From NCBI GenBank assembly GCA_903870275.1, contig CAIQCK010000012.1, forward strand, positions 124,001 to 188,000: a DNA stretch of 64,000 bases, given 5' to 3'. Both the position numbers and the translations under genes were made by a program. Under the pieces are notes generated by a model that ran no database searches, was not told where the DNA came from, and saw nothing but the letters and a program-made list of their open reading frames with translations. How positions within the stretch are numbered: the stretch's first letter is position 1; each line of letters begins with the position of its first letter. This stretch comes from an uncultured bacterium. GTDB lineage: Bacteria; Verrucomicrobiota; Verrucomicrobiia; CAIQCK01. Positions 2,218-45,116 of this stretch are shown one piece after another.

Positions 2218-4647
2218 ATGATCTCAAGACTGACGGTTGTGACACTGTTGTCCGCGCTGACGATCACAGCATCTGCGGAACCACAAACACCCACGGTCTT
2301 GGTCCCATCGGCGGGCGATCCCGCCTATCGCATCGCCGGCAATGTTTTCTGTGAGATGTTGGAGAAGATTACGGGCGCGAAGCCGCGCACGATGGCTTGT
2401 GCCAGCCCTGACGACGGGAAACTGCCGCCGGGCGACCTCGTGCTCATCGGCTCCGACGCGGTGAATCCCATCGTGCATCGCCTGATCTTGCAGGGGAGCA
2501 TCGAGAGCCTCGGCATTCGCTACGGCACGGACGATTATCGCATCCTCTCGCTGCCGGACCACGGGCGCACGCTGCTGATCCTCGCCGGCAGCGCGGGGCG
2601 CTCGACGATCTACGCGGCCTACGATTTCTTCCGCAAGAAAGCCGGCGTGGAATATTTCTGGGACGGCGACGTGATTCCGAAGCGCGCGAATATCGAGCTG
2701 GCTGGCTGCGATTTCACCGAACAACCGCGTTTCCAGTATCGCGGGCTGCGCTACTTCGCCCACCGCGGGCCGCATCGGTTTCAAGCGGAGATGTGGGACT
2801 TCGAGGATTGGAAGCGCGAGATGGATTGGATTCTCAAGAAGCGGTTAAACCTCTTCATGCTGCGCACGGGGATTGACGACCTTTTCCAGCGCGCGTTCGA
2901 CCTGCCGTATCCGCCCACCGACGGCGTGGACCCCGACGCCGAGCCGCGCTCCTACAACGACCGCACGTCATTCTGGCCGCTCAAGTATCGCGGCGAGTTG
3001 CGCAAGCGCGTGCTTGCCTACGCCCGCGAACGCGGCCTGATTCATCCGGAGGACACCGGCACCATCACGCACTGGTATTCGCACACGCCGGGATCGTTTT
3101 ACAAAACATTCCCCGACTTTCCCGTCACGCACGATCAGAAAACCGGCTACACGCTCGCCTCCGCCGCGATCTGGGACATCGAACACGAACGGACATGGGA
3201 CGCCTACTGGAAGCTGACCGAAACGCACATCCGCGAGTTCGGCGAGCCGCGGATGTTCCACACCATCGGCCTGGCCGAGCGGAGCTTCGGCGGCAGCGAG
3301 CGCGAAGACTTGCAGCGGAAGCTTCACGCGTATCGCAAAATCCAGGAAGTCCTGCGGCGGCATTACCCGGACGCGCCGTTGTTGATCGCAAGCTGGGACA
3401 TGATGGGCTGGTGGAAAAACGACAACGTGCGGCGGCTGCTCAGTGAGTTCGACCCGCAACGCACGATCCTGCTCGACTACACCGCCGACCTGATCCACCG
3501 GAAGACCTATCGCGACTGGGACGCCTACAAGAAGTTTCCGTGGATCTTCGGCGTGTTCCATGCCTTCGCCGCCGACAGCGAAATCCGGGAGGATTATGGC
3601 ATCCTGCAAGAACGCATCGGCGAAGCCGCCCAAGACTCGCAATGTCTCGGCCTCGTGCTCTGGCCGGAAATTTCGCACAGCAACACGCTGCTGCTGGAAT
3701 ACCTCGCCGCCAACGGCTGGCAGCCGGATCAGCTGGACGTGAACGCGTTTGTGGGCCGCTATTGCGCGGGCCGCTATCCGTCCGATCTTGCCGCGCGCAT
3801 GGAAAAAATCTGGCGCCCGTTCCTGCCCATCGCGGCCACGCATCACTGGACTGGCGGCGACGCGCACAAGAAAACCTACCCGGCTGTGCAAACCGATCCG
3901 CAATTCCGAATGCTGACCTACGCCACGTACGCGAATCTCAACGAGGCGCGCGCGCACGCTTATGAAGAGGAATTCCAGCGGCTCGCGGCGGCGCTTGGCC
4001 AGGCGCCCGCGTTGCTGGCGCAACTCGCGCCATTGGCGGAGGCCAGCTACGCGAATGAACTGTGGCGTCGCGACACGATTGACATCACGCGGACCGTCAT
4101 CAACCGGGCGCTGAAGGCGTCCCTGATGCGTGGCTGCGTGGCTATGGAAGCATGGCGGACGGGCCGTGGCGACGAGGCTGCGGTGAGAAGCATGGAGACG
4201 GCGAGCAAGGGCCTCATGGAGCAACTCGGCGATTTGCTGGACCTCAGCGACGATTTCTCACTTTACGCGGCCATGAAGCAACTCGGACGCGCCCGCGAAC
4301 TCGGCGGCGTCACGCCGCAGATCAATCCCCACACCGAGCTGACGCTGAAGGGCAACGCCGAAAACACCTACTGCCGCGCCCACCAATACGAGCTGGTCCG
4401 TTACGTTTACCCGGCCGAGTTGGACGAATACTGGAAGTGGGTCAACGGGCGGCTCGAGTCCGGCAAGAAAGATGCGTGGAAGCAGCCGGCGGCGTTTGGT
4501 CCGGCCGAAAAAGCCATTCAAGAGCGCTTTTACGCCACGCCGCTCGCCGAGATGGCTCCCAAACGCACACGCTCGGCGGAAAGTTTGAGCCGGACCATCG
4601 AACGGACGCGGGAACTGATCGCCACCTTGCTGACACCGAAGCAGTGA
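2218..4647 (+). CDS. Secreted glycoside hydrolase, GH89 (alpha-N-acetylglucosaminidase)/alpha-glucuronidase-like
   Basis: Signal peptide MISRLTVVTLLSALTITASA. FRKKAGVEYFWDGDVIPKR and WDFEDWKREMDWILKKRLNLFMLRTG are reminiscent of GH89/GH67-type N-terminal and catalytic regions. Confidence 0.55.
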   Translation: MISRLTVVTLLSALTITASAEPQTPTVLVPSAGDPAYRIAGNVFCEMLEKITGAKPRTMACASPDDGKLPPGDLVLIGSDAVNPIVHRLILQGSIESLGIRYGTDDYRILSLPDHGRTLLILAGSAGRSTIYAAYDFFRKKAGVEYFWDGDVIPKRANIELAGCDFTEQPRFQYRGLRYFAHRGPHRFQAEMWDFEDWKREMDWILKKRLNLFMLRTGIDDLFQRAFDLPYPPTDGVDPDAEPRSYNDRTSFWPLKYRGELRKRVLAYARERGLIHPEDTGTITHWYSHTPGSFYKTFPDFPVTHDQKTGYTLASAAIWDIEHERTWDAYWKLTETHIREFGEPRMFHTIGLAERSFGGSEREDLQRKLHAYRKIQEVLRRHYPDAPLLIASWDMMGWWKNDNVRRLLSEFDPQRTILLDYTADLIHRKTYRDWDAYKKFPWIFGVFHAFAADSEIREDYGILQERIGEAAQDSQCLGLVLWPEISHSNTLLLEYLAANGWQPDQLDVNAFVGRYCAGRYPSDLAARMEKIWRPFLPIAATHHWTGGDAHKKTYPAVQTDPQFRMLTYATYANLNEARAHAYEEEFQRLAAALGQAPALLAQLAPLAEASYANELWRRDTIDITRTVINRALKASLMRGCVAMEAWRTGRGDEAAVRSMETASKGLMEQLGDLLDLSDDFSLYAAMKQLGRARELGGVTPQINPHTELTLKGNAENTYCRAHQYELVRYVYPAELDEYWKWVNGRLESGKKDAWKQPAAFGPAEKAIQERFYATPLAEMAPKRTRSAESLSRTIERTRELIATLLTPKQ

Positions 4648-4688
4648 GAACACCCAATCAACCTAACGCAACGTCGCGGCGCGATTTA

Positions 4689-5963
4689 GTGATTCGAGCG
4701 CAGATTCACCGGTTCGCGAGGTTTTCATTCCCACTGTTGCTTCTGACGGCCTTGTGCCTGTCGGCTGGTTCTGCCGACGGCCCGACTGGCAAGGCATTCA
4801 AGATTTCGGTGGACCGGACGATGTGGGCCAAGTGGGGCTTCCAGTATCCTGTGACGTATGTTTTTGACGTCTCCGGTGTGTCTCTTGGCGCGAAGGTCAG
4901 TCGCCGGGACATTCCGTCCTCTGCGTGGAAGCCTGTGCCCACCAAAGCGGCCACCAACTTTTTCAACGGCGTCGAGTGCGTGCGGTTCGATTACAGCCGG
5001 GAGCGCGCTTTTGTATCGGTGGGGTTTGGCGCCAGCGACACCATCGAGCTGCAATTTACGAACGTGACCTCGGCACGGTTTGCCGGAGTGGCCAGGTATT
5101 ATGACGACCGCAAGGCGGCCTACACGCTGTCGATCGACAACTGGGGACGCAGGGCGACGGCCAATCCCGGCGCGGCGTGGAACGCGGCAGACGACGACCG
5201 GTGTGACAACTATCAGGCGGCCTTGCGAGTCTGTCGCGGTTTCCATTTGCCCGTTTCGATTGCCATCAACACCCACATGGCCGGCAGCAACACGATGTGG
5301 AATGTGATGCAACAAGAACTGGACCGACGGGATTTCAGTTGGGAGCCGGCTGTCCACGCGCAAACTCATCCGGGCAATGCGAAAGCCTACAGCGTTCGCG
5401 GCTGCAAAGCGGAGATTCTCGGCTGCCGCGACGAAATCCTGCAGCACCTTCACCGCATCCCCTGCGGCGAACATGTCTTCGAGCACATCCTCACATCCGG
5501 ATACAAAGACGAGGACATCCTCGGCACGGATGCCGGAGAGTTTCTTTTCGTGCGCGGCTACAACGGCCGCGACAACCCCACAAGCACCGATTACGCGACG
5601 TGGGACGCGGCGCACAAGTTTTACGGCGTTGGCGGGCTGAACACCAAAGACTACGACCGCGTCTTCGCAAGGCGCGCTCCGAAGGGGCGGTTCTTTGCCG
5701 CGGACGTTGCGGAATTAAATGCGGAGTTCGACCGCGCGCGTGCCGCTGGTGGCATTTGTTATGCCATGTGGCACCCCGACCGCTATCTCAACAGCGTTCT
5801 CCACGACCCGCGCCCCGGAGAGGACGGTGTTCAAGGCTCGACCCTGGTGCAGCATCTGAGCCACGTCGCGAACCGCAAAGACGTATGGTATGTGGCCAAC
5901 GGCTGGCTCTACAGTTATCGCTACGTAGCCGAACATGCCTCGATTACCAACCAGCAACCGTAG
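4689..5963 (+). CDS. Secreted polysaccharide deacetylase-like protein (GTG start proposed)
   Basis: The ORF runs 4152-5963, but the signal-like segment IHRFARFSFPLLLLTALCLSAGSA implies initiation near GTG 4689, after the previous stop. YTLSIDNWGRRA and HAQTHPGN resemble NodB-like folds. Confidence 0.5.
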   Translation: MIRAQIHRFARFSFPLLLLTALCLSAGSADGPTGKAFKISVDRTMWAKWGFQYPVTYVFDVSGVSLGAKVSRRDIPSSAWKPVPTKAATNFFNGVECVRFDYSRERAFVSVGFGASDTIELQFTNVTSARFAGVARYYDDRKAAYTLSIDNWGRRATANPGAAWNAADDDRCDNYQAALRVCRGFHLPVSIAINTHMAGSNTMWNVMQQELDRRDFSWEPAVHAQTHPGNAKAYSVRGCKAEILGCRDEILQHLHRIPCGEHVFEHILTSGYKDEDILGTDAGEFLFVRGYNGRDNPTSTDYATWDAAHKFYGVGGLNTKDYDRVFARRAPKGRFFAADVAELNAEFDRARAAGGICYAMWHPDRYLNSVLHDPRPGEDGVQGSTLVQHLSHVANRKDVWYVANGWLYSYRYVAEHASITNQQP

Positions 5964-5979
5964 GAGGTATCAACCAACG

Positions 5980-7575
5980 ATGAAAACCCCAACATCCATA
6001 TTAACTTCGCGCCGGGAGTTTCTGAAAACCTCCGCCGTCGTTGCCGGCACCCTCGCTCTTGGCCGCACGGCGCTCGCACAGTCCGCCGCGCCGCCGGTCT
6101 CCGGTCTTCTGCCGCGCAGCATTCATCCTTATCCCAACAAGGTCACGTGGGGTGCGGGTGCGCTGAGCCTCAGCAAACGCGCGACGCTCACAGTGGGGCG
6201 CGAGAGCGACGCGGGCGTTGTCGAGATGATGAAGGACACGTGGAACCGGTTTACGTTCGGCGCGGTGGAACTGGTCGTGACACGCGACGCGGCGCTGAAG
6301 GCCGGCGAATTCGCGCTGGCAGGCGCGCAACCGCCGCCACGGGAATCGAACTCCGCCTACGCGCTCAAGGCGGACGCGTCGGGCATCGCGGCGAGCGCGG
6401 CCGATTCGGCGGGGATGCGCCAGGCGTGGTTCACGCTGCTGCAATTATTGCAAGCCGGCGAACCGGCGAGCGGCGGCCTCGCGTTCGCGCTGCCGCATGT
6501 GGAGATTCAGGACGGGCCGGCGATGAAGTTCCGCGGACTGCACCTTTGCGTTTTTCACGAGACGTCGCCGGTGATGATTGAGAAAGCCATCCGGCTCGCG
6601 GCGTTCCTCAAGTTCACCCACGTCGTGCTGGAATTCTGGGGCATGTTGCGGCTCGACGCGCTGAAGGAGTTGTCGTGGCCCGAAGCGTGGCCGAAAGCGC
6701 AGGCCGGCAAGCTCATCGCCATCGCGCGAGGCATGGGATTGGAGATCATCCCGATGTTCAACTGTTGGGGCCACGCCACCGCGTGCCGCATCAAGCACGG
6801 CCGCCACGTCGTGCTCGACCAGAACCCGAAGCTCGCCCCGCTGTTCGAGCCGGACGGCTGGACGTGGTGCCTGACGAACCCGCGCTCGCAGGACCTGTTG
6901 CGGCGCGTGTGCGACGAACTGATCGAGTTCGCCGGGCCGGGAAAGTTCTTCCATATCGGCTGCGACGAGGCTTATTCGCACGCGACGTGCGACCGCTGCC
7001 GGCAGACCGACCGCGTGCAGCTCTTCGCCGACCACGTGAACAACCTCGCCGCGCATCTGGAAAAACGCGGCCGGCGCGCCATCATGTGGGGCGACGCGTT
7101 GCTGGAGCGCGGCAAGTGGCCGGCGGGTTTCGCAGCCAATGGCTCGCCCACGTTGCCCACGCATCTGGCGCTGGACCGCATCTCGCACCAGATCGTGATC
7201 GCCGACTGGCATTACGACGTGACCAAGGGCTCGGTGCCGACGCTGGCGCATTTCCGCGAGCATGGCTTCGAGACGCTGGCGTGTCCGTGGAACTCACTGG
7301 GCAACATCCGCACACTGGCGAAAGCCGCCGTCGCCAACAACAGCGCCGGCGTGCTCATGACGACCTGGCATCATCTCGTCCAAAGCATCCCGACGCTGCC
7401 CTACGTCGCCGCGTGCGTGTGGTCGCAGGACCAAGCCGCGCTCGGCCTCGGGCAGATGGAGGGGTCGCTTTCGCGCGCCGCGACGGCCGCCATCCTGCGC
7501 AAGCTCGTGCCGGCGGAGGGCAAATTCGAGCGTGCCGGCTGGAACCCGTTCGAGCTGCCGGCGGAGACTGACTGA
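5980..7575 (+). CDS. Tat-exported GH20-like beta-N-acetylhexosaminidase family protein
   Basis: Tat motif SRREFLKTSAVVAGTLALGRTALA. LHLCVFHETSPVMIEKAIRLAAFLKFTHVVLEFWGML, GKFFHIGCDEAYSH and RRAIMWGDALLERGKW are GH20-type. Confidence 0.65.
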   Translation: MKTPTSILTSRREFLKTSAVVAGTLALGRTALAQSAAPPVSGLLPRSIHPYPNKVTWGAGALSLSKRATLTVGRESDAGVVEMMKDTWNRFTFGAVELVVTRDAALKAGEFALAGAQPPPRESNSAYALKADASGIAASAADSAGMRQAWFTLLQLLQAGEPASGGLAFALPHVEIQDGPAMKFRGLHLCVFHETSPVMIEKAIRLAAFLKFTHVVLEFWGMLRLDALKELSWPEAWPKAQAGKLIAIARGMGLEIIPMFNCWGHATACRIKHGRHVVLDQNPKLAPLFEPDGWTWCLTNPRSQDLLRRVCDELIEFAGPGKFFHIGCDEAYSHATCDRCRQTDRVQLFADHVNNLAAHLEKRGRRAIMWGDALLERGKWPAGFAANGSPTLPTHLALDRISHQIVIADWHYDVTKGSVPTLAHFREHGFETLACPWNSLGNIRTLAKAAVANNSAGVLMTTWHHLVQSIPTLPYVAACVWSQDQAALGLGQMEGSLSRAATAAILRKLVPAEGKFERAGWNPFELPAETD

Positions 7576-7596
7576 TTGTGATTTGGAGGAACGATT

Positions 7597-8340
7597 ATGA
7601 TACTAGCAAACCTGACCTGGCCCGAAGTGGCCAAGCTGAAACGCGATGTGGTTGTCGTGTATCCCATCGGAGCGTTGGAGCAACACAGCCGGCACCTGCC
7701 GTTCTTCACCGACTCGATCTTGTGCGGCGCCATCGCCGACCGCGTTGAGGCGGCGCTGCCGAAGGACGTGTTGCTGCTGCCGGTACAGTGGCTCGGCGCA
7801 TCCACGCATCACCTCGGCATGGCGGGAACGCTGAGCGCGGAAAATGAGACCTACATCAAACTCGTCGCCGAACCGATGCGTTGCCTGCTGCAACACGGCT
7901 TCAAGCGACAGTTGGTGCTCAACGGTCACGGCGGCAACAAGGACGGTTTCCACCTCGCGCTCCGCCAGCTCATCATGGAGTTCCCCGACGCGCAGCTTTT
8001 CGGGGCGAACTACTGGGACACAGCCGCCGAAGAGATTGCGAAGATCGTCGAAGGCCCGATGAAAGGCATCGGCCACGCGTGCGAGGCCGAGACGGCATTG
8101 ATGCTTACTGTCCGTCCGGACCTGGTGCGGCGCCACGCGATCCACAACGACCTTTCTGCCACACGCCAGCCGAAGGCGCTCAGCGGCGTTTACGTCGTGC
8201 CCGTCATGAAGGCGCAAACCGAACACGGCGGCATCGGCTACGCGGAACTCGCCACGGAGGAGAAAGGCAAGTTATTGCTCGATGCCATCGTGGTGCGCGT
8301 CGTGGAAGTCATCCGGGCCATTGGTAAGAAGCAAAACTGA
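7597..8340 (+). CDS. Creatininase family protein
   Basis: PIGALEQHSRHLPFFTDS and LVLNGHGGNKDGF are creatininase-family metal-binding motifs. AGGA ribosome-binding site upstream. Confidence 0.85.
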   Translation: MILANLTWPEVAKLKRDVVVVYPIGALEQHSRHLPFFTDSILCGAIADRVEAALPKDVLLLPVQWLGASTHHLGMAGTLSAENETYIKLVAEPMRCLLQHGFKRQLVLNGHGGNKDGFHLALRQLIMEFPDAQLFGANYWDTAAEEIAKIVEGPMKGIGHACEAETALMLTVRPDLVRRHAIHNDLSATRQPKALSGVYVVPVMKAQTEHGGIGYAELATEEKGKLLLDAIVVRVVEVIRAIGKKQN

Positions 8341-8353
8341 ACCGGAGATCCGC

Positions 8354-9886
8354 ATAAAGATTCTCAAACCCATCTTCACACTGAGCCAGCGCCGCTTCCT
8401 GTGCGGACTCGGCGCGACCATCGCGTTGGTTGCACACCTCGGTGCCACAGAATCGGCGCAGCCGCCGATCTCCACCTGCGCCATCGCTGATTTCAAACCG
8501 CTGCTCCTTTCTGCTGGTGAAGAGGGGACGGTTGATCTCTGGTTCTCGGATGAGTTGGAGAGGATTCCTCGCAATTGGGTGCGCGTGTTGACCACGGTCC
8601 GGGCCGAGGGGGAGACTGTGGCCGGTCTGGTCTTTGTGGACGTTCTCCGGCGGGAATATCGCGGCAAATTGAGCACGCTGCAGGCCGGCAAAGAGGGTGA
8701 AATCGGCGCGGAAATGGAACAAGCTGGGCGTCCCGTGTCGCTGCTTCGCGGCGTGAGGCTTTATTACAAGGGAGGGCCGCTTCGGATCGCCAACCTGCGG
8801 CTGCTTCACACCGAGGAAACACTGCCAAGGCCGGACGTCACTGTGCAGGGGACGTTCGACGACAGTTCGATACAGAAAGCCTTGGATGCACTCGGCCCGC
8901 GCGGTGGTGTGGTTTGTGTTCCCGCTGGCAACTACGTCATCCGAAACCAGATCAAGGTTCCGGTGGACAACGTGACCATCTACGGCGATGGAGCGAAGAC
9001 CACCCTCCAAGGCACCTGGTTCGAAACCAAGGCCCTGATCCTGGCCGAGAAGCGGCAGAACCTGCGTTTGACGCGACTCCATCTGCGAAGTCTGCCGATC
9101 ACCTGTTTTCGCGGCTACAGTGAAGCGAAGTATGCCCTGCCCGGTGACGCCGGCAGGCCGTCGGTCCACGGCACCGGGATCGAGTTGCTGCATTGCCATC
9201 GGACGCGAGTGGATCATTGCGAAGTCGAGTTGTTCGGTCACGCTGGCCTTTGGTGTTTCGGCGGCAGCGAGAATCTGGTTGACCACTGCTTCTTCCATGA
9301 AAACTTTCACTATGGTGACGGCTACGGCGTTTGCGCTACAGCCACAAAGGATCTCTTCATCGAAGACAACAGTTTCGAAAACCACCGGCACGGGATCGCC
9401 GCGGGGAACGGCGCTTCCTATACCGCTCGTTTCAACCGCATGATCAAAGACGCCGCCGTGCTGGCAGACTGGAAACAAAATGCGGATGCAATCAACCAAC
9501 TCCGTGCTCACGACATTGATGCCCATCCGGGTTGCAAGTGGATCTTCGCTCACGACAACTACGTGGCCATGCGCAACGCCCTCATGGGAGGCGGTGCCTA
9601 CATGCGTGGCAATCCGGCGTGGCTCTGTCGCAATGTGTTCGAGAACTGCGTGCCGGGGATTTTTTGCACGGGCCAGTCCGACGACGTGTGGACTTGGGAC
9701 AATCGTTTCATCGAGTGCAAGAACCCCAAGGGGCAACTGCGAGAAGAGTATTCGGATGCGACGGGGGCCATTCACTTTCGACAGAGGCCGCCCCAGTTCC
9801 GCGAGATCCCGTATCCCTGCGAGTTAAACCGTTTTAATTGGTGGCCGGGCCGGCCATCCGAAACAATGCAGAAGGAGGCACGATGA
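8354..9886 (+). CDS. Secreted right-handed beta-helix (pectate-lyase-like) protein; start codon uncertain (ATA at 8354 or ATG at 8282)
   Basis: The ORF track gives 8282-9886. Signal-like segment RRFLCGLGATIALVAHLGATESAQ. ALDALGPRGGVVCVPAGNYVIRNQIKVP...VTIYGDGAKTTLQG is typical of beta-helix proteins. Confidence 0.6.
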   Translation: MKILKPIFTLSQRRFLCGLGATIALVAHLGATESAQPPISTCAIADFKPLLLSAGEEGTVDLWFSDELERIPRNWVRVLTTVRAEGETVAGLVFVDVLRREYRGKLSTLQAGKEGEIGAEMEQAGRPVSLLRGVRLYYKGGPLRIANLRLLHTEETLPRPDVTVQGTFDDSSIQKALDALGPRGGVVCVPAGNYVIRNQIKVPVDNVTIYGDGAKTTLQGTWFETKALILAEKRQNLRLTRLHLRSLPITCFRGYSEAKYALPGDAGRPSVHGTGIELLHCHRTRVDHCEVELFGHAGLWCFGGSENLVDHCFFHENFHYGDGYGVCATATKDLFIEDNSFENHRHGIAAGNGASYTARFNRMIKDAAVLADWKQNADAINQLRAHDIDAHPGCKWIFAHDNYVAMRNALMGGGAYMRGNPAWLCRNVFENCVPGIFCTGQSDDVWTWDNRFIECKNPKGQLREEYSDATGAIHFRQRPPQFREIPYPCELNRFNWWPGRPSETMQKEAR

Positions 9887-10032
9887 AGATCGTTGACATG
9901 GAAGTTCGCACGGTGGCGATTCCGACCACGTGCCAGTTGCGCCATAACACCGGCGTTCATCCCGAGCCGGCGACAGGCGCGAACGAGAAGATTGTTTCGA
10001 CAGCATCGTGGCGAAAACCGCGGCGTTCTTAG
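9883..10032 (+). pseudogene. Truncated 5' fragment of an enolase-superfamily (mandelate racemase-like) gene
   Basis: 9883-9964 matches 11223-11304 at 80 of 82 positions. The encoded MKIVDMEVRTVAIPTTCQLRHNTGVHP matches the start of the downstream gene, then homology stops and the frame ends. Confidence 0.85.
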
Positions 10033-10067
10033 TCCTGTCAGCAAAATGGTGAATTGAAATAAACAAA

Positions 10068-11213
10068 ATGAAAAAAAGGAAGAACCTCGTTGGGGCCGCG
10101 ACACTCATTGTGGCACTATCGCTGGCCGGTGTCCCGGTTCTTGCCCAAGCCCCGAAGAGTCCAGATGGCAACCGTGCCGAAGCGGCGGGGCGCCTGCGGC
10201 CGGACATTCACGGTTGCGGTGTCTATCAGACGAGCGGATACGGGGACGAGCTTGGCGCACTGACCAACCCGCACCTCGACGGGCACAAGTTGATGAAGTG
10301 GTGGTCGCAACTCGAACCGGAGGAGGGAAAATACAATTGGTCGGCGATTGAGGGTCCGATGAGCAAGTGGCTGGCGGCGGGGAAACGGGTGATGTTAAGC
10401 CCCATCACGGCGCACGCCGGTCCGGTAAATGGACTGCCCGCGCAAGCGACGCCCGACTGGGTATTCAAGGCCGGTGCAAAGTGGGTGCCCCTGCCTTTGA
10501 AAGGAAGCAAAGACTCGGTGCGTGTGCCCGTGTATTGGGACCTGATTTACCTGGAGAAGTATCGGAATTTCATCCGGGCGCTCGGCAAGCAGTTTGACGA
10601 CCGGAAGGGAATCGAAGTCGTTTACTGCGGCACGGGAGTTTTTGGCGAGACGATCGTCTCAACTGAGCTTTGGGGGCAAAAGGAACATCGGCTCTGGAGT
10701 GAAGCCGGCCTGACCCCGGAGAACTGGACCAAGGCCGTCAATGCCATGGTAGATGCCTACGTCGAGGCGTTTCCGAAGACGGTTGTGGGGCTGCAAGTGA
10801 CCAACCCCGGCTTGGTCTCCTACATGGAGAGTTGCACACCAACCTATGTGCGCCATGCGGCCGAGAAGGGCGTCCTCTTACAGTATTGCGGGATCACGGG
10901 TGAGCCTTTCAAATGGAGTGGGCAGTTCTTTGCCGACTCCATCACGCGCTGGGCCGGTGTGACGAGCATAGGATTCGAAGCGTATAGCCCATCGAGCGGC
11001 GCCGCACCGACGAACTCCACGTTTGTGTTCGAAGGCAGTTTGAAGACCCTGGTGGACGTGGCAATCAAGTATAAGGTCAACTACATGTTGATGTGGTATC
11101 AGGATGCTGTGAAGGCCACACCGGGCAGCAAAACGCACGACCCAGAGTGGGATGAGGCGATCAAACGTGCAGCAGCCTCGCTTAAGCACGGACCTCTGGG
11201 AGGATGGAGGTGA
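10068..11213 (+). CDS. Secreted beta-galactosidase-like (GH42-type TIM barrel) glycosidase
   Basis: Signal peptide MKKRKNLVGAATLIVALSLAGVPVLAQ. KLMKWWSQLEPEEGKYNWSAIEGPMSKWLAAGKRVMLSP and YCGTGVFGE fit a clan GH-A-like barrel. Confidence 0.5.
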   Translation: MKKRKNLVGAATLIVALSLAGVPVLAQAPKSPDGNRAEAAGRLRPDIHGCGVYQTSGYGDELGALTNPHLDGHKLMKWWSQLEPEEGKYNWSAIEGPMSKWLAAGKRVMLSPITAHAGPVNGLPAQATPDWVFKAGAKWVPLPLKGSKDSVRVPVYWDLIYLEKYRNFIRALGKQFDDRKGIEVVYCGTGVFGETIVSTELWGQKEHRLWSEAGLTPENWTKAVNAMVDAYVEAFPKTVVGLQVTNPGLVSYMESCTPTYVRHAAEKGVLLQYCGITGEPFKWSGQFFADSITRWAGVTSIGFEAYSPSSGAAPTNSTFVFEGSLKTLVDVAIKYKVNYMLMWYQDAVKATPGSKTHDPEWDEAIKRAAASLKHGPLGGWR

Positions 11214-11222
11214 GGTTTGCCT

Positions 11223-12413
11223 ATGAAGATCGTTGACATGAAAGTTCGCACGGTGGCGATTCCGACCACGTGCCAGTTGCGCCATAATACCGGCGTTCAT
11301 CCCGGCTACTTCATCCGCAACGTCCTCGAATTGGTCACCGACGAAGGCATCGTCGGCTTGGGCGAGGTGGGCGGCGGCGACCAGCGCGGCGCATTGATGA
11401 AGCTCAAGCCGCGCATCGTCGGCCTCGACCCGTTTCACCTCGAAGTCATCAAGCTCAAGGTCTTGCGCAGCATCTACTATCTCTCCAACGCGCGGCTCTA
11501 CGGTGCCATAGAGATCGCCTGCCTCGACATTCAGGGCAAGGCGCTCGACCGGCCGATGTGCGACCTGCTCGGCGGCGCGGTGCGCGACCGCGTGCCGCTG
11601 ATGGGCGAGATCAGTTGGCGTTACGACCGGCCCGGCGGCGGCGACGACACGCGCGCCGAAGACCTCGTCGAGCAATGCGAGCAACTCCACGCCGAGTTGG
11701 GCGTGAAGACGGTCAAGATGAAAGGCGGTGTCGTGGACCCGGACGTGGAAGTGCGCGTGATGGAACTGTGCCGCCAGCGCATGGGGCCGAACTTCGGGCT
11801 GCGGATTGACGCCAACGGCGTTTGGAGCGTGGCGACCGCGGTGCGCGTCGGCCGGCGGCTGGAACCGCTCGGCCTTGAATATTACGAGGACCCGGCGTGG
11901 GGCATCGAAGGTCTCGCGGCGGTGCGGCGGCAGGTGCGCATTCCCATCGCGACCAACATGTATCCGGCGAAGTTCGACGACCTGGGTCCGGCAGTCCGAC
12001 TCGGCGCGGTGGATGTGGTGCTGACCGATCTCCACTACTGGGAAGGGCCGCGCGGCGTGAAAGATCTCTGTGCCGTGCTGCGGACGTTCAACCTCGGCGT
12101 GGGCATGCATAGCGGCGCGGAGTTCGGCATCGAGATGTCGGCGATGCTTCACACGGCCTGCACGATTCCCGAAATGAACTTTGCCGGCGACGCCATCTAC
12201 AATTACCTGACCGACGACATCATCGTCGGCGGCAAGATGCGTTACGAGGATGGTTGCCTGCGCGTGCCGGCCGGTCCCGGCCTCGGCGTCACGCTCGACG
12301 AGGAGAAGATGGCAAAATACGAGCGCTACTACGCCGAGAAGGGCGACTACTACGCGCGCTTCCATCAAGACCCGCGCCGGCCCGACTGGTATCCGATTGT
12401 CGGCGGAATGTGA
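11223..12413 (+). CDS. Mandelate racemase/muconate lactonizing enzyme (enolase superfamily), sugar-acid dehydratase-like
   Basis: GLRIDANGVWSVATAVRVGRRLEPLGLEYYEDPAWG, IPIATNM and GVGMHSGAEFGIEMSAMLH are enolase-superfamily barrel motifs. Confidence 0.9.
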   Translation: MKIVDMKVRTVAIPTTCQLRHNTGVHPGYFIRNVLELVTDEGIVGLGEVGGGDQRGALMKLKPRIVGLDPFHLEVIKLKVLRSIYYLSNARLYGAIEIACLDIQGKALDRPMCDLLGGAVRDRVPLMGEISWRYDRPGGGDDTRAEDLVEQCEQLHAELGVKTVKMKGGVVDPDVEVRVMELCRQRMGPNFGLRIDANGVWSVATAVRVGRRLEPLGLEYYEDPAWGIEGLAAVRRQVRIPIATNMYPAKFDDLGPAVRLGAVDVVLTDLHYWEGPRGVKDLCAVLRTFNLGVGMHSGAEFGIEMSAMLHTACTIPEMNFAGDAIYNYLTDDIIVGGKMRYEDGCLRVPAGPGLGVTLDEEKMAKYERYYAEKGDYYARFHQDPRRPDWYPIVGGM

Positions 12414-12450: not shown

Positions 12451-12523
12451 AATTATCCCGAAAACCGAAGTTGGGCAGACAGGAATGTCTGCCTCACGGT
12501 CAACTCCGGTTTTCGGGATTATT
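12451..12523. repeat. Nested intergenic palindrome (outer 23-bp arms, inner 8-bp perfect stem)
   Basis: aattatcccgaaaaccgaagttg (12451-12473) pairs with caactccggttttcgggattatt (12501-12523) at 21/23. Inner ggcagaca-ggaa-tgtctgcc spans 12474-12493. Confidence 0.85.
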
Positions 12524-34036: not shown

Positions 34037-36246
34037 TGCAACGTTTCTCATGTTGCCGTTGGCTGCTCGTAACATTGATCGCCACCGTTGCGGCTGGTGG
34101 AGAGCCGGGGCCAAAGAGCGCCTCGCTCCCGAACCGACAGGCTGAAGGCGACACCAACGCCTGGCTCAATGTCCGGGACCTCGGCGCTTCAGGATCGAAA
34201 TTTGAGACCCGAGGCAGCACGACCGATGGATCGAAACAAATCACCGTCGCCAACGCCAGCGATTTTAAAGTCGGCCAGGGCGTGATGGTGTCGCGCTGCA
34301 ATATCCGATACGTCAACCCGACGCTTTGGGGACCCGGCGAGCCTTATATCGGCGCGAGCAAGGACACGGGAATGGGAATCCGCGGCTACGACGGCGCCGC
34401 GGGCAGTTGGATCGTGTTTCTGCTGGAGATGGACAGCGCGGAGCCGACGTTCCGGTGGAGTGAGGATCTAGCGCGGAACTGGAAAGGAACCAAGGTCCCG
34501 GTCACCTACGACTGGCAGCCGCTGGGCGGCGGCGTCGAGGTGCGGTTCAGCCGGCGCGACTGGAAACCGGGCCACATGATCAGCTTCAGCGCGCGCGATC
34601 AACTCGTCAGCACGATCGAGAAGATCGAGGGAAACGTGCTGACGCTGCGGGACGGCGCGAACCGCACGGCCGGCGACGCCGTCGTCAGGCATTGCGACAG
34701 CATGGCGCTTCAAGCGGCGTTCGACCGCGCCATCCGTGAGAAGAAGAACGTGTTCATCCCCATCGGCCGGTACCGGCTGGCCACCGGGCTGTTCGTGCGC
34801 AACGCCGGTGCCATCGCCATCGAGGGACAAAGCTCCGAGGACACGATCCTCGACATCTCCGACGGGCAGGGCGCGTGCCTGGCTCTGGATCGCGGCACGG
34901 AAGTGACCGTGCGCAATCTCCGGCTCGTCGGCCACACCGGGCTGGCGGAACAGCCGGGCGCGTTCCGCACGTCCAGCGGCTTCTCCTTTTGGGCCTGCAC
35001 GCTCAAGAGCTGCAGCGGCGCCAGCATCAACGGCACCGAGCGTGTGCTCTTCGAGAACGTCCACGCCAGCCGCATGGCCAGCGAGTGTTTCATCTCGGGC
35101 GGCCCGTATCGCCGCGGCGCGGAGGAACCGAAGCAATACACGAAATCGGCGACGTACCTGCGCTGCTCGGTGACCGACTGCGCGGCGAACGCATTCAACA
35201 ACTGCGATTTCGCCGAGAACACCAGCGTGTTGTATTGCCGGATAAACGGTGCGGGCTGGCACGCTTACGAGGGTTCGGGCCGGTTCATCCGCTTCATCGG
35301 CAACTACGTCCGCAACGCCGGCCCCGTCACCATCGGCGACATCCCGCACACGCTGCCGCGGCTGGACCATTACCACGACCTTGGCATCGGCCAGGCCGTT
35401 GTGCGCGACAACGTCTTCGAGGGCATCGGCCGCTGCGGCGGAGTCACGGCGATCTACGGCACCACGCAAGTCGTGATCGCCAACAACCTTTTCATCAACT
35501 ACAACGGCAACGCCATCCATGCGTCGAGCGCCACGGTCCACAACAATTACCCGTCGCGGAACATTACCATCAGCGGCAACATCATTGACCTGACCTACGC
35601 GGGCGAGAAGCCGTCTTCACGCATCGGCATCAACGTGAGCGCCTCCGACACGCTCGTTCACGACAACCAGATCTACGTCCGCGGCGCGTGCGACGCGAAA
35701 GTGACCGGCCTCCAGTTCCGCGACGGCGCGCTGAACGTCAACGCGCACGACAACCTGATCCGCAACTGCGGCCGGGGCATCACCACGCAACGTCTTTCCG
35801 GAACAATCACCGAAACCGCCGACTCGCGCACGTTCCGCCAGACCGGCCTGCCGCTCGAATGGCGCACCTCGCACCTCTACCGCAACTGGAACCTCGTCTG
35901 GCTGAAGTCAAACAAGCCGGTGGGGGAGTCCGTGATGGATGGCTACGACCCGGCGGCGCTTCAGTTCAAGTTGAAGGAACCTCGCGACATGAAAGTCGGT
36001 GACGGTTTTGAGGTCTTCCCGCCATCGGCCAACTGGAACATCCACGACAACACCATCACCGGCTGCCAGCAACCCGTCACGCTGACCGGCTACGGCAGCG
36101 ACTCGTCCTTCTTCCGCGACAACCTCGTCGAGCGCGGCGGCGCCACCAACGCAACGCAGGCCATTGTCATTACCGGGCGGTTTCAGCTCAATGGCAACCA
36201 CATCGCGGGCTTCGACGAGAAAAACAACCCAGGGATCAAACCATGA
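34036..36246 (+). CDS. Secreted right-handed beta-helix protein, paralogue 1
   Basis: LNVRDLGASGSKFETRGSTTDGSKQITVANASDFKVGQGVMVS; beta-helix repeats to the C-terminus. Start overlaps the preceding TAA. Confidence 0.65.
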   Translation: MQRFSCCRWLLVTLIATVAAGGEPGPKSASLPNRQAEGDTNAWLNVRDLGASGSKFETRGSTTDGSKQITVANASDFKVGQGVMVSRCNIRYVNPTLWGPGEPYIGASKDTGMGIRGYDGAAGSWIVFLLEMDSAEPTFRWSEDLARNWKGTKVPVTYDWQPLGGGVEVRFSRRDWKPGHMISFSARDQLVSTIEKIEGNVLTLRDGANRTAGDAVVRHCDSMALQAAFDRAIREKKNVFIPIGRYRLATGLFVRNAGAIAIEGQSSEDTILDISDGQGACLALDRGTEVTVRNLRLVGHTGLAEQPGAFRTSSGFSFWACTLKSCSGASINGTERVLFENVHASRMASECFISGGPYRRGAEEPKQYTKSATYLRCSVTDCAANAFNNCDFAENTSVLYCRINGAGWHAYEGSGRFIRFIGNYVRNAGPVTIGDIPHTLPRLDHYHDLGIGQAVVRDNVFEGIGRCGGVTAIYGTTQVVIANNLFINYNGNAIHASSATVHNNYPSRNITISGNIIDLTYAGEKPSSRIGINVSASDTLVHDNQIYVRGACDAKVTGLQFRDGALNVNAHDNLIRNCGRGITTQRLSGTITETADSRTFRQTGLPLEWRTSHLYRNWNLVWLKSNKPVGESVMDGYDPAALQFKLKEPRDMKVGDGFEVFPPSANWNIHDNTITGCQQPVTLTGYGSDSSFFRDNLVERGGATNATQAIVITGRFQLNGNHIAGFDEKNNPGIKP

Positions 36247-38444
36247 AATCGGCGGTACTTCTCAACATCGTCCTCCTGGCGGTCTGGCCCGGCTTGGCAC
36301 AGACTGGCGCGGCGGATTGGCTCAACGTCCGCGATTGCGGCGCATCGGGGTCGAAGTTTGAGACGACCGCCGCGACCACCGCCGGCTCGAATCAGATCAC
36401 GGTCGCGAACGCCGGCAACTTCAAGGTGGGGCAGGGTATCATGGTTTCGAAGTGCAACATTCGCTACACCCGGCTCAACATGTGGGGGACCGGGGAGCGC
36501 TACTACAATACCAAGAAGCCAGGAAGCTCAGTGGAGATGCGAGGCTACGACGGCAGCGCGGGAAGTTGGGTCGTGTATGTGCTGGACATCGCGCCGGGCC
36601 AACGCGCGTTCCGCTGGACCGACGACCTCGGGCGCAACTGGCACCCGGCGGTGGCCATCACGCATGACTGGCAGGCCTTGAGTGGCGGGGTCGAAGTTCG
36701 GCTCAACGAGCGCGATTGGGAGTCCGGATATGTGATCTCCTTCGGCGCGCGCGATCAACTGGTGACCACCATCGAGAAGATCGCGGGGAACGTTCTGACG
36801 TTGAAGGACGCGGCAAACCGCTCCGTGCAGGACGCGGTGGTTCGCCACAACGACGGCGTCGCTCTGCAGGCGGCGATCGATCGCGCCCTGAAAGAAAAAC
36901 GCAACGTGTATGTTCCCGCGGGGCACTACCGCATGGCGCGCGGCGTGTCGGTGAAGAACGCGGCGGCGATCACCATCGAGGGGGCCAGCGCCGTGGATAC
37001 CGTGCTGGACATCAGTGACGGCGAAGGTTCGTGCTTCTCCCTGTCGGATGGCACGGAGGTGACACTCCGCAACTTCCGAATGACCGGTTTCATGGGCTTC
37101 GACGAGGCTGATCGGGCAGACGAGCTTTCCACGAAAGGCGCGACGGCCGTGTGGGGGTTGTGGCTCAAGACCTGCTACGCCGTGGGGATCGACGGCACAG
37201 AGCGGGTGCTGGTGGAGAACTGCCACGCCAGCCGGATGTCATCGGAATGCTTCGTGTCGGGCGGGCCGAGCCGGGGGACGGTGAAACCGGGGCGGCACCA
37301 TTCCCAGGCGATCACCTACCTCCGCTGTTCGGCGACCGACTGTGCCCGCAACGCCTTTAACGACGTGAATTGCGGCACCGAGAACACAAGCGTGCTGCAC
37401 TGCCGCATCGTGAACGTGGGCGGCAACACCTGGGAGGGCGCCTCGCGCTTCGTCAAGTTCATCGGCAACTACGTGCGCAACGCGGGGCCGGTGGGCATCG
37501 GCAATCTCGGGCCGGCCAACCGCGACAAGACCTACCCGGACCTCGGCGCCGGGCAACACATCGTCGCCGACAACGTCTTCGAGGGCAAGGTGTCGTACGG
37601 CGGGCGTGCCGGCGGGAACGCCGTCTGCACCTCCCGGGGCGCGACGCAGGTCATCGTGCGGAATAACCTGTTCATCAATTTCAATTCGTCGGGCGTGACG
37701 GCCTCGGGCGAAGCCATTTCCAGGGAGTATCCCGCCGCCAACACAACCATCACGGGCAACATCTTCGACATGACGTGCGTGGGGCAGAAACCGCTGCGCC
37801 GCACCGCGATCAACGTCAGCGCGAACGATACGATCATCGCCGACAACCAGATCTACGTCCGGGGCCAGTGCGATCCGCTGGCCTCCGGCATCCGGCTTCG
37901 GGAGCCGGCGCTGAACCTGATCGTTCACGACAATCTCATCCGCAACTGTGGCTTCGGCGTCGTCACCGAGCGGGGCCGGGCGCAAATCGGCGAGGTCGTT
38001 GACGCGCGCACCTTCCTGCGCGCCGACAGAGGGCCGATGAATCTGCCGCTGGAACGGTCGAGTCCATGGCAATATCGCGGCTGGGGCATCGCCTGGTTGG
38101 TCGAAAATAAACCGGCGGCCACATCGGTCATCGAGTCATTCGATCCGGAGACGCTGCAGTTCAAGCTCCGCGAGCCGCACGAAATGAAAGCCGGCGACCG
38201 TTTCGACGTCATCGCGCCTTCGCTGAACTGGAACATCCACGACAACACCATCACCGGCTGCCAGCAACCCGTCATGCTGACCAGTCACGGCAGCGACACG
38301 TCCTTCTTCCGCAACAACCTCATCGAGCGCGGCGGCGCCACCAACGCGACGCAAGCCATCGTGGTTACCGGCCGCTTCAAACTTGACGGCAATCACATCG
38401 CAGGATTCGACGGCAAATCAACGGACGCGCCTCACAAACCATGA
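36243..38444 (+). CDS. Secreted right-handed beta-helix protein, paralogue 2
   Basis: DWLNVRDCGASGSKFETTAATTAGSNQITVANAGNFKVGQGIMVS; collinear homology with 34036-36246. ATGA overlap. Confidence 0.65.
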   Translation: MKSAVLLNIVLLAVWPGLAQTGAADWLNVRDCGASGSKFETTAATTAGSNQITVANAGNFKVGQGIMVSKCNIRYTRLNMWGTGERYYNTKKPGSSVEMRGYDGSAGSWVVYVLDIAPGQRAFRWTDDLGRNWHPAVAITHDWQALSGGVEVRLNERDWESGYVISFGARDQLVTTIEKIAGNVLTLKDAANRSVQDAVVRHNDGVALQAAIDRALKEKRNVYVPAGHYRMARGVSVKNAAAITIEGASAVDTVLDISDGEGSCFSLSDGTEVTLRNFRMTGFMGFDEADRADELSTKGATAVWGLWLKTCYAVGIDGTERVLVENCHASRMSSECFVSGGPSRGTVKPGRHHSQAITYLRCSATDCARNAFNDVNCGTENTSVLHCRIVNVGGNTWEGASRFVKFIGNYVRNAGPVGIGNLGPANRDKTYPDLGAGQHIVADNVFEGKVSYGGRAGGNAVCTSRGATQVIVRNNLFINFNSSGVTASGEAISREYPAANTTITGNIFDMTCVGQKPLRRTAINVSANDTIIADNQIYVRGQCDPLASGIRLREPALNLIVHDNLIRNCGFGVVTERGRAQIGEVVDARTFLRADRGPMNLPLERSSPWQYRGWGIAWLVENKPAATSVIESFDPETLQFKLREPHEMKAGDRFDVIAPSLNWNIHDNTITGCQQPVMLTSHGSDTSFFRNNLIERGGATNATQAIVVTGRFKLDGNHIAGFDGKSTDAPHKP

Positions 38445-44596: not shown

Positions 44597-44804
44597 TGCA
44601 ATAATCTCCTGCGTCAATTCAGCGGGCGTCCAACGGCGCCCGCCATCCCGGCACAAACATATTCTGATACGTCATCCAACCGGTTGCAGTCTGCCAAGAC
44701 GCGCGCCGCGCGTCGAGCAAGGTTTTTTATCTTCCGCGTGTGGTGGGCGCATCTCATGTTTTGGATAGCTCCCCTCCGGCCGCACCGAAGGTGCCAAAGT
44801 AAAT

Positions 44805-44980
44805 CAGCCCAAGGCAAGCGAGTCCGCGAGCGCCGCCCTGGGATAGCCGCAGGCAATGAGGTGCGCCCTGAAGGGGCGCAGGCAAATCGCGGACGTGTCG
44901 TTACCGCCGCCCTTTCAGGGCGGCCGGGGCGCGCTGTTTCCACCCCGGGCGGCGCTCGCGGACTCGCTTGCCCTGGGCTG
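44805..44980. repeat. Large cruciform-like intergenic palindrome with two internal hairpins
   Basis: Arms 44805-44838 and 44947-44980 are inverted repeats at 33/34. Internal tgcgccc-tgaag-gggcgca (44862-44880) and ccgccct-ttc-agggcgg (44907-44923). Confidence 0.9.
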
Positions 44981-45116
44981 GATTACCGCTGCGCCTTCGG
45001 CGCGCTCGGAAAGCTCCAGAATACGCAGCAACAAAAACGTGGTTCAGACCCATTCACACACACGTTTCAAAAACTGAGATGCGCCCCGTGCGGTCGTCCG
45101 GGCCGGTCGCCGCCGC

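Follow-up and report, generated by a model that had tools for sequence, protein, structure and literature searches.

The 82 bp by which the start of the enolase-superfamily gene enolB is repeated ahead of a glycosidase gene are probably a recombination scar, left by a homologous crossover inside enolB together with an illegitimate join at nucleotide 82. The repeat lies in the window (the whole 64-kb stretch of DNA that was analysed, C12:124001-188000 of a Verrucomicrobiota MAG), and it most likely records genuine gene shuffling of an ordinary kind. Copy 1, upstream of the glycosidase gene, would be the resident enolB start truncated at nucleotide 82, and copy 2 together with the glycosidase gene would come from, or be built on, a second arrangement.

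A repeated gene start around a glycosidase gene

Positions 9883-9964 (copy 1) and 11223-11304 (copy 2) form an ungapped direct repeat of 82 nt. Our repeat search found 80 of the 82 positions identical and placed the two mismatches where the initial annotation had put them, at 9901 (G) versus 11241 (A) and at 9948 (C) versus 11288 (T). No other short repeat in the 64-kb window is near-identical. When the copies were searched against the whole 7.1-Mb genome, the repeat gave an E value of about 2e-33, and the sole other match was the start of the paralogue enolA (C12:120352, 79%). As previously described, the homology begins at the ATG, ends abruptly after 82 nt and has non-matching flanks, the ATG being preceded by GAAGGAGGCACG in copy 1 and by GAGGTGAGGTTTGCCT in copy 2.

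Copy 2 constitutes the first 82 nt of enolB (11223-12413, plus strand), a complete MR_MLE gene of 396 aa with both N and C domains. No equivalog model reaches its cut-off for enolB; the nearest scores are those of glucarate dehydratase and muconate cycloisomerase, and among solved structures putative isomerases and glucarate dehydratases come closest. The only second enolase-superfamily copy, enolA, is 77% identical to enolB and far older. An inverted repeat with 23-nt arms and a 27-nt loop, possibly a REP-like element or a terminator, lies directly behind enolB (12451-12523). Between the two copies sits a GH42-like glycosidase gene (10068-11213, plus strand), which matches Pfam PF02449 weakly (22.5 bits against a cut-off of 21) and for which a structure search returned no solved relative.

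Copy 1 retains only the first 27 codons of enolB and one further nucleotide (9883-9964, plus strand), a truncated 5' stub in the context of a PL-enolB junction. It is preceded by a good Shine-Dalgarno sequence and would open a chimeric ORF of 49 codons (9883-10032, plus strand), identified from the sequence, in which 27 enolB codons run into unrelated sequence. This ORF has no NCBIfam match and is probably a by-product of the stub. Its Shine-Dalgarno sequence and its 49 translatable codons would also suit a conserved regulatory leader peptide of enolB, a possibility that the initial annotation had set against its own reading. The relatives at hand (G001, G002, G003 and G016) refute it: none has a free-standing stub, and G003 carries the full gene at that position. 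Moreover, the tail of the ORF is without counterpart and the stub bears a private Lys-to-Glu change, leaving a leader function with a near-negligible probability.

The Lys-to-Glu change of the stub is derived. In copy 2 a synonymous site reads T, against C in most relatives, and among near relatives T is otherwise found only in G016. One private change per copy is what a genuine duplication of slight age would show if the stub no longer functions and the gene next to it is under constraint. The copies differ at 2/82 sites from each other, versus 6 or 7/82 to G001 and G003. The event can therefore be called recent, as had been suggested, only relative to the genus.

Junction contexts in related genomes

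We compared the locus with G001, G002, G003 and G016, four relatives at the genus or class level, the first three being congeneric. Their core order is enolA, creatininase, extra genes where present, enolB and NAGLU. No extra gene is found in G016, where creatininase stands directly before enolB; G001 and G002 have one GH10 gene, and G003 has GH10-GH10-PL. In the window, the creatininase-family gene (7597-8340, plus strand), whose place upstream of the enolB module is conserved in relatives, is followed by PL, a beta-helix/pectate-lyase-like gene (8282-9886, plus strand; PF12708, PF13229) whose last bases overlap the start codon of the stub (ATGA).

PL shares 81% amino acid identity with the G003 gene that directly precedes a full enolB. 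There, PL and the complete enolB are joined through the same junction as in copy 1, with no glycosidase gene between them. Window positions 8386-9964 align without a break with G003, which runs on as full enolB, and both have the upstream context gccggccatcc...atgcagaagga..cacgATG in common. This unbroken alignment indicates that copy 1 preserves a natural PL-enolB junction, which was formerly followed by the entire gene. An insertion or recombination at the dehydratase start, as initially proposed, is thus supported, since PL in G003 joins full enolB where the window has the 82-bp stub.

Copy 2 stands in a different context. In G001 and G002, the GH10 gene precedes enolB via TGAGGTTYGCCTATG (altered in G002), which is the junction of copy 2. 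In the window, TGAGGTTTGCCT-ATG corresponds to TGAGGTTCGCCT-ATG at the GH10-enolB junction of G001, again altered in G002, and the copy 2 context TGAGGTTTGCCTATG equals TGAGGTTCGCCTATG at that G001 junction except for one base. As the upstream contexts of the copies differ and each is native in a relative, we reject the simple, partial tandem duplication that had been offered as another origin. The glycosidase gene is absent from the syntenic locus in all four relatives, in agreement with what the insertion reading had led one to look for.

The same end product would result if an ancestor had carried a full-length enolB behind PL as well as behind the glycosidase gene and most of the copy following PL had then been deleted, leaving 82 bp. 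Two enolase-superfamily paralogues and relocated modules are indeed present in the genus. However, this history requires an extra step and no relative has two enolB genes, the sole second copy being the much older enolA; we consider it unlikely.

The window comes from a MAG and both junction types occur in related genomes, which raises the question of an assembly chimera, that is, a contig joining co-existing strain variants with PL-enolB and GH42-enolB. Against this, the longest exact run common to both copies is 46 nt, and the stub is followed by 103 unique bases and the glycosidase gene without overlap or Ns. A k-mer or overlap mis-join does not give this order, given the 46-nt limit and the gap-free unique sequence behind the stub. 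Each copy also has a private substitution, and other breakpoints in the region indicate that real rearrangement is common here. A chimera therefore appears improbable.

The shuffling of modules asserted by the initial annotation is seen in other cases too, one at the 5' end of PL and one in the position of a gene module. At window positions 8341-8391, the PL 5' end is fused to a GH10 gene-start remnant, with about 45 nt alike to the GH10 signal-peptide DNA of G001 and G002. The GH10 ATG has been turned into ATA, and PL is without an obvious start codon outside the creatininase gene; this 5' end is a GH10 deletion scar. In the window (2218-8340), creatininase-PL-enolB is preceded by the NAGLU, deacetylase-like and GH20 genes, whereas same-genus relatives in which these genes were found have them downstream of enolB; this module has thus been displaced.

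Two GH10 relatives of the genes missing beside enolB are located on contig C85 (G000, L093:7965-11745) with a different gene between them. They show 77% and 52% amino acid identity but have other signal peptides and neighbours. We therefore did not adopt a move of the lost genes to this contig, and the two may be paralogues. Elsewhere in the window, two adjoining stretches of about 2.1 kb with 67% DNA identity form an older tandem duplication (34162-38422), and an imperfect palindrome of about 236 bp is 72% self-complementary (44775-45010).

The start of PL in G003 (L047:9103, minus strand), a gene that adjoins enolB immediately upstream, is probably another scar with the same polarity. This start, ATGGACATCGTTGCC, lies directly behind TGAGGTTTGCCC and is identical at 12/15 bases to the enolB start ATGAAGATCGTTGAC. 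Among the 598 ATG-started ORFs of the loci, it is the only non-enolase start with at least 12/15 matches to the enolB start. PL may have arrived at this position in a similar way, with a 15-nt remnant of enolB becoming its start. Alternatively, PL was possibly lost from G001 and G002 by deletion between two similar starts. By enolB identity the window branches outside G001-G003, and hence both a gain of PL in G003 and a loss in G001 and G002 are compatible with the branching order.

The inserted gene, its joints and a possible route

The glycosidase ORF also occurs in G001, at another locus and with 90% DNA identity. This homology covers the mature part only and starts sharply after the signal peptide; the 3' end of the G001 gene also reads TGAGGTTCGC, after which the sequences diverge. 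The signal-peptide region in the window (residues 1-34, 10068-10181) is unrelated to that of the 89% identical G001 orthologue, and a search for its source in the window's own genome gave chance matches only. Between the window and G001, dS is about 0.32 for the glycosidase gene and 0.35 for enolB. These similar values suggest that the glycosidase gene has probably resided in the genus since the species diverged and was relocated within it, rather than freshly imported from afar. A home locus modelled on that of G001 was not found in the window genome, where only the glycosidase gene itself matched at high identity over its length.

On the left, copy 1 ends in an abrupt join between 9964 and 9965, which would be the illegitimate joint. 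It is followed by a unique linker of 103 nt (9965-10067, plus strand) with no second copy in its own genome at the DNA or protein level and only chance-level DNA matches in 188 relatives. On the right, the glycosidase stop codon overlaps the Shine-Dalgarno sequence within TGAGGTTTGCCT (11211-11222, plus strand), as in the GH10-enolB junction of G001. The 10-mer TGAGGTTYGC is found at four gene ends: GH42-enolB in the window, GH10-enolB in G001, GH10-PL in G003 and the GH42 end in G001. It occurs nowhere else in all fetched loci, with a chance expectation of 0.35 for the window. This restriction to gene-end joints makes the 10-nt stretch the likely right joint.

We propose the following course. 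Both junction contexts, the loci of relatives that lack the insert and the common joint sequence are observed; which donor took part, in what order the steps occurred and by which recombination route are reconstructed from the product. In the resident chromosome, full enolB would have followed PL immediately, an arrangement that G003 retains. The incoming segment would have carried the GH42-like gene, then TGAGGTTTGCCT, then enolB; this glycosidase-enolB fusion was probably made earlier at TGAGGTTYGC, which is common to the glycosidase and GH10 gene ends. On the right side the segment would pair by homology within enolB, and on the left it would be joined illegitimately at nucleotide 82 of the resident enolB, which past this point would be replaced or displaced. 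The sequence from enolB nucleotide 83 onward, missing behind the stub, could equally be the present full gene, displaced downstream. The product would be PL, the 82-nt stub, the 103-nt linker, the glycosidase gene and an intact enolB. Given a glycosidase-enolB donor, a single step comprising one homologous crossover in enolB and one illegitimate join accounts for the entire layout. None of the other genomes examined has the predicted donor arrangement GH42-enolB, and a windowed comparison against five relatives revealed no mosaic step in the full enolB.

We have very little confidence in a bolder reading, in which the enolB start is a recurrent docking point where a dedicated mechanism exchanges extracellular glycan-enzyme genes, cassette-like, via the stop/Shine-Dalgarno joint TGAGGTTYGC and leaves enolB 5' stubs behind. 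As a recombination scar, the locus changes no known principle. It offers a readable case of glycan-degradation clusters of uncultured Verrucomicrobiota growing one gene at a time, in which the anchor gene is identified, both parental junctions are kept in relatives and gene-start stubs mark the joints. The stub signature can be searched for systematically.

Comparison with known systems

Transposons and insertion sequences are recognised by terminal inverted repeats, a transposase and a short target duplication, and integron gene cassettes by an attC core, GTTRRRY, at the cassette end. If the insert had arrived by site-specific recombination or transposition, the 82 bp would be a target duplication or a pair of attachment sites. 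This would account for direct repeats flanking the insert and for a restored target gene, and the enolB start has apparently been struck twice in the genus. However, 82 bp far exceeds transposon target duplications, and the 1.26-kb insert contains no transposase or integrase ORF and no inverted repeat linking its ends. The stub lengths also differ (15 versus 82 nt), which argues against a fixed crossover site. The right joint reads GTTTGCC, with T where the attC core requires R, and no mobile-element ends were found at the insert. An origin of this kind is extremely improbable.

The layout of the locus matches the product of a Campbell-type integration, in which a circle enters by a single crossover and the homologous stretch is repeated on both sides, truncated upstream and full downstream. 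Here, however, the insert carries no plasmid or circle functions and the crossover would have to fall within the first 82 nt.

Homology-facilitated illegitimate recombination (HFIR) involves RecA-dependent uptake of linear DNA; the event described here is read from its product. HFIR has been described in S. pneumoniae, A. baylyi, P. stutzeri and, rarely, E. coli, and combines one homologous with one illegitimate end, such that about 1 kb is inserted and about 1 kb of the recipient is replaced; the illegitimate joins typically use 3-10 bp of microhomology (PMC3240628). The locus resembles this in that homology lies on one side of the insert, which is followed by enolB, homologous to the gene entered, and in the size of the insert (1.26 kb compared with about 1 kb). 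A linear donor with one homologous end and an integrating circle would leave an identical product, and the product is therefore consistent with either.

Our literature search on partial gene duplications at insertion sites returned no closer precedent. Partial gene duplications and 5' gene remnants are known at horizontally shuffled operon junctions. The stub is reminiscent of these, as a non-functional fragment marks a gene insertion beside a conserved anchor gene. It differs in that both parental junctions are kept in relatives, so that the parts can be assigned.
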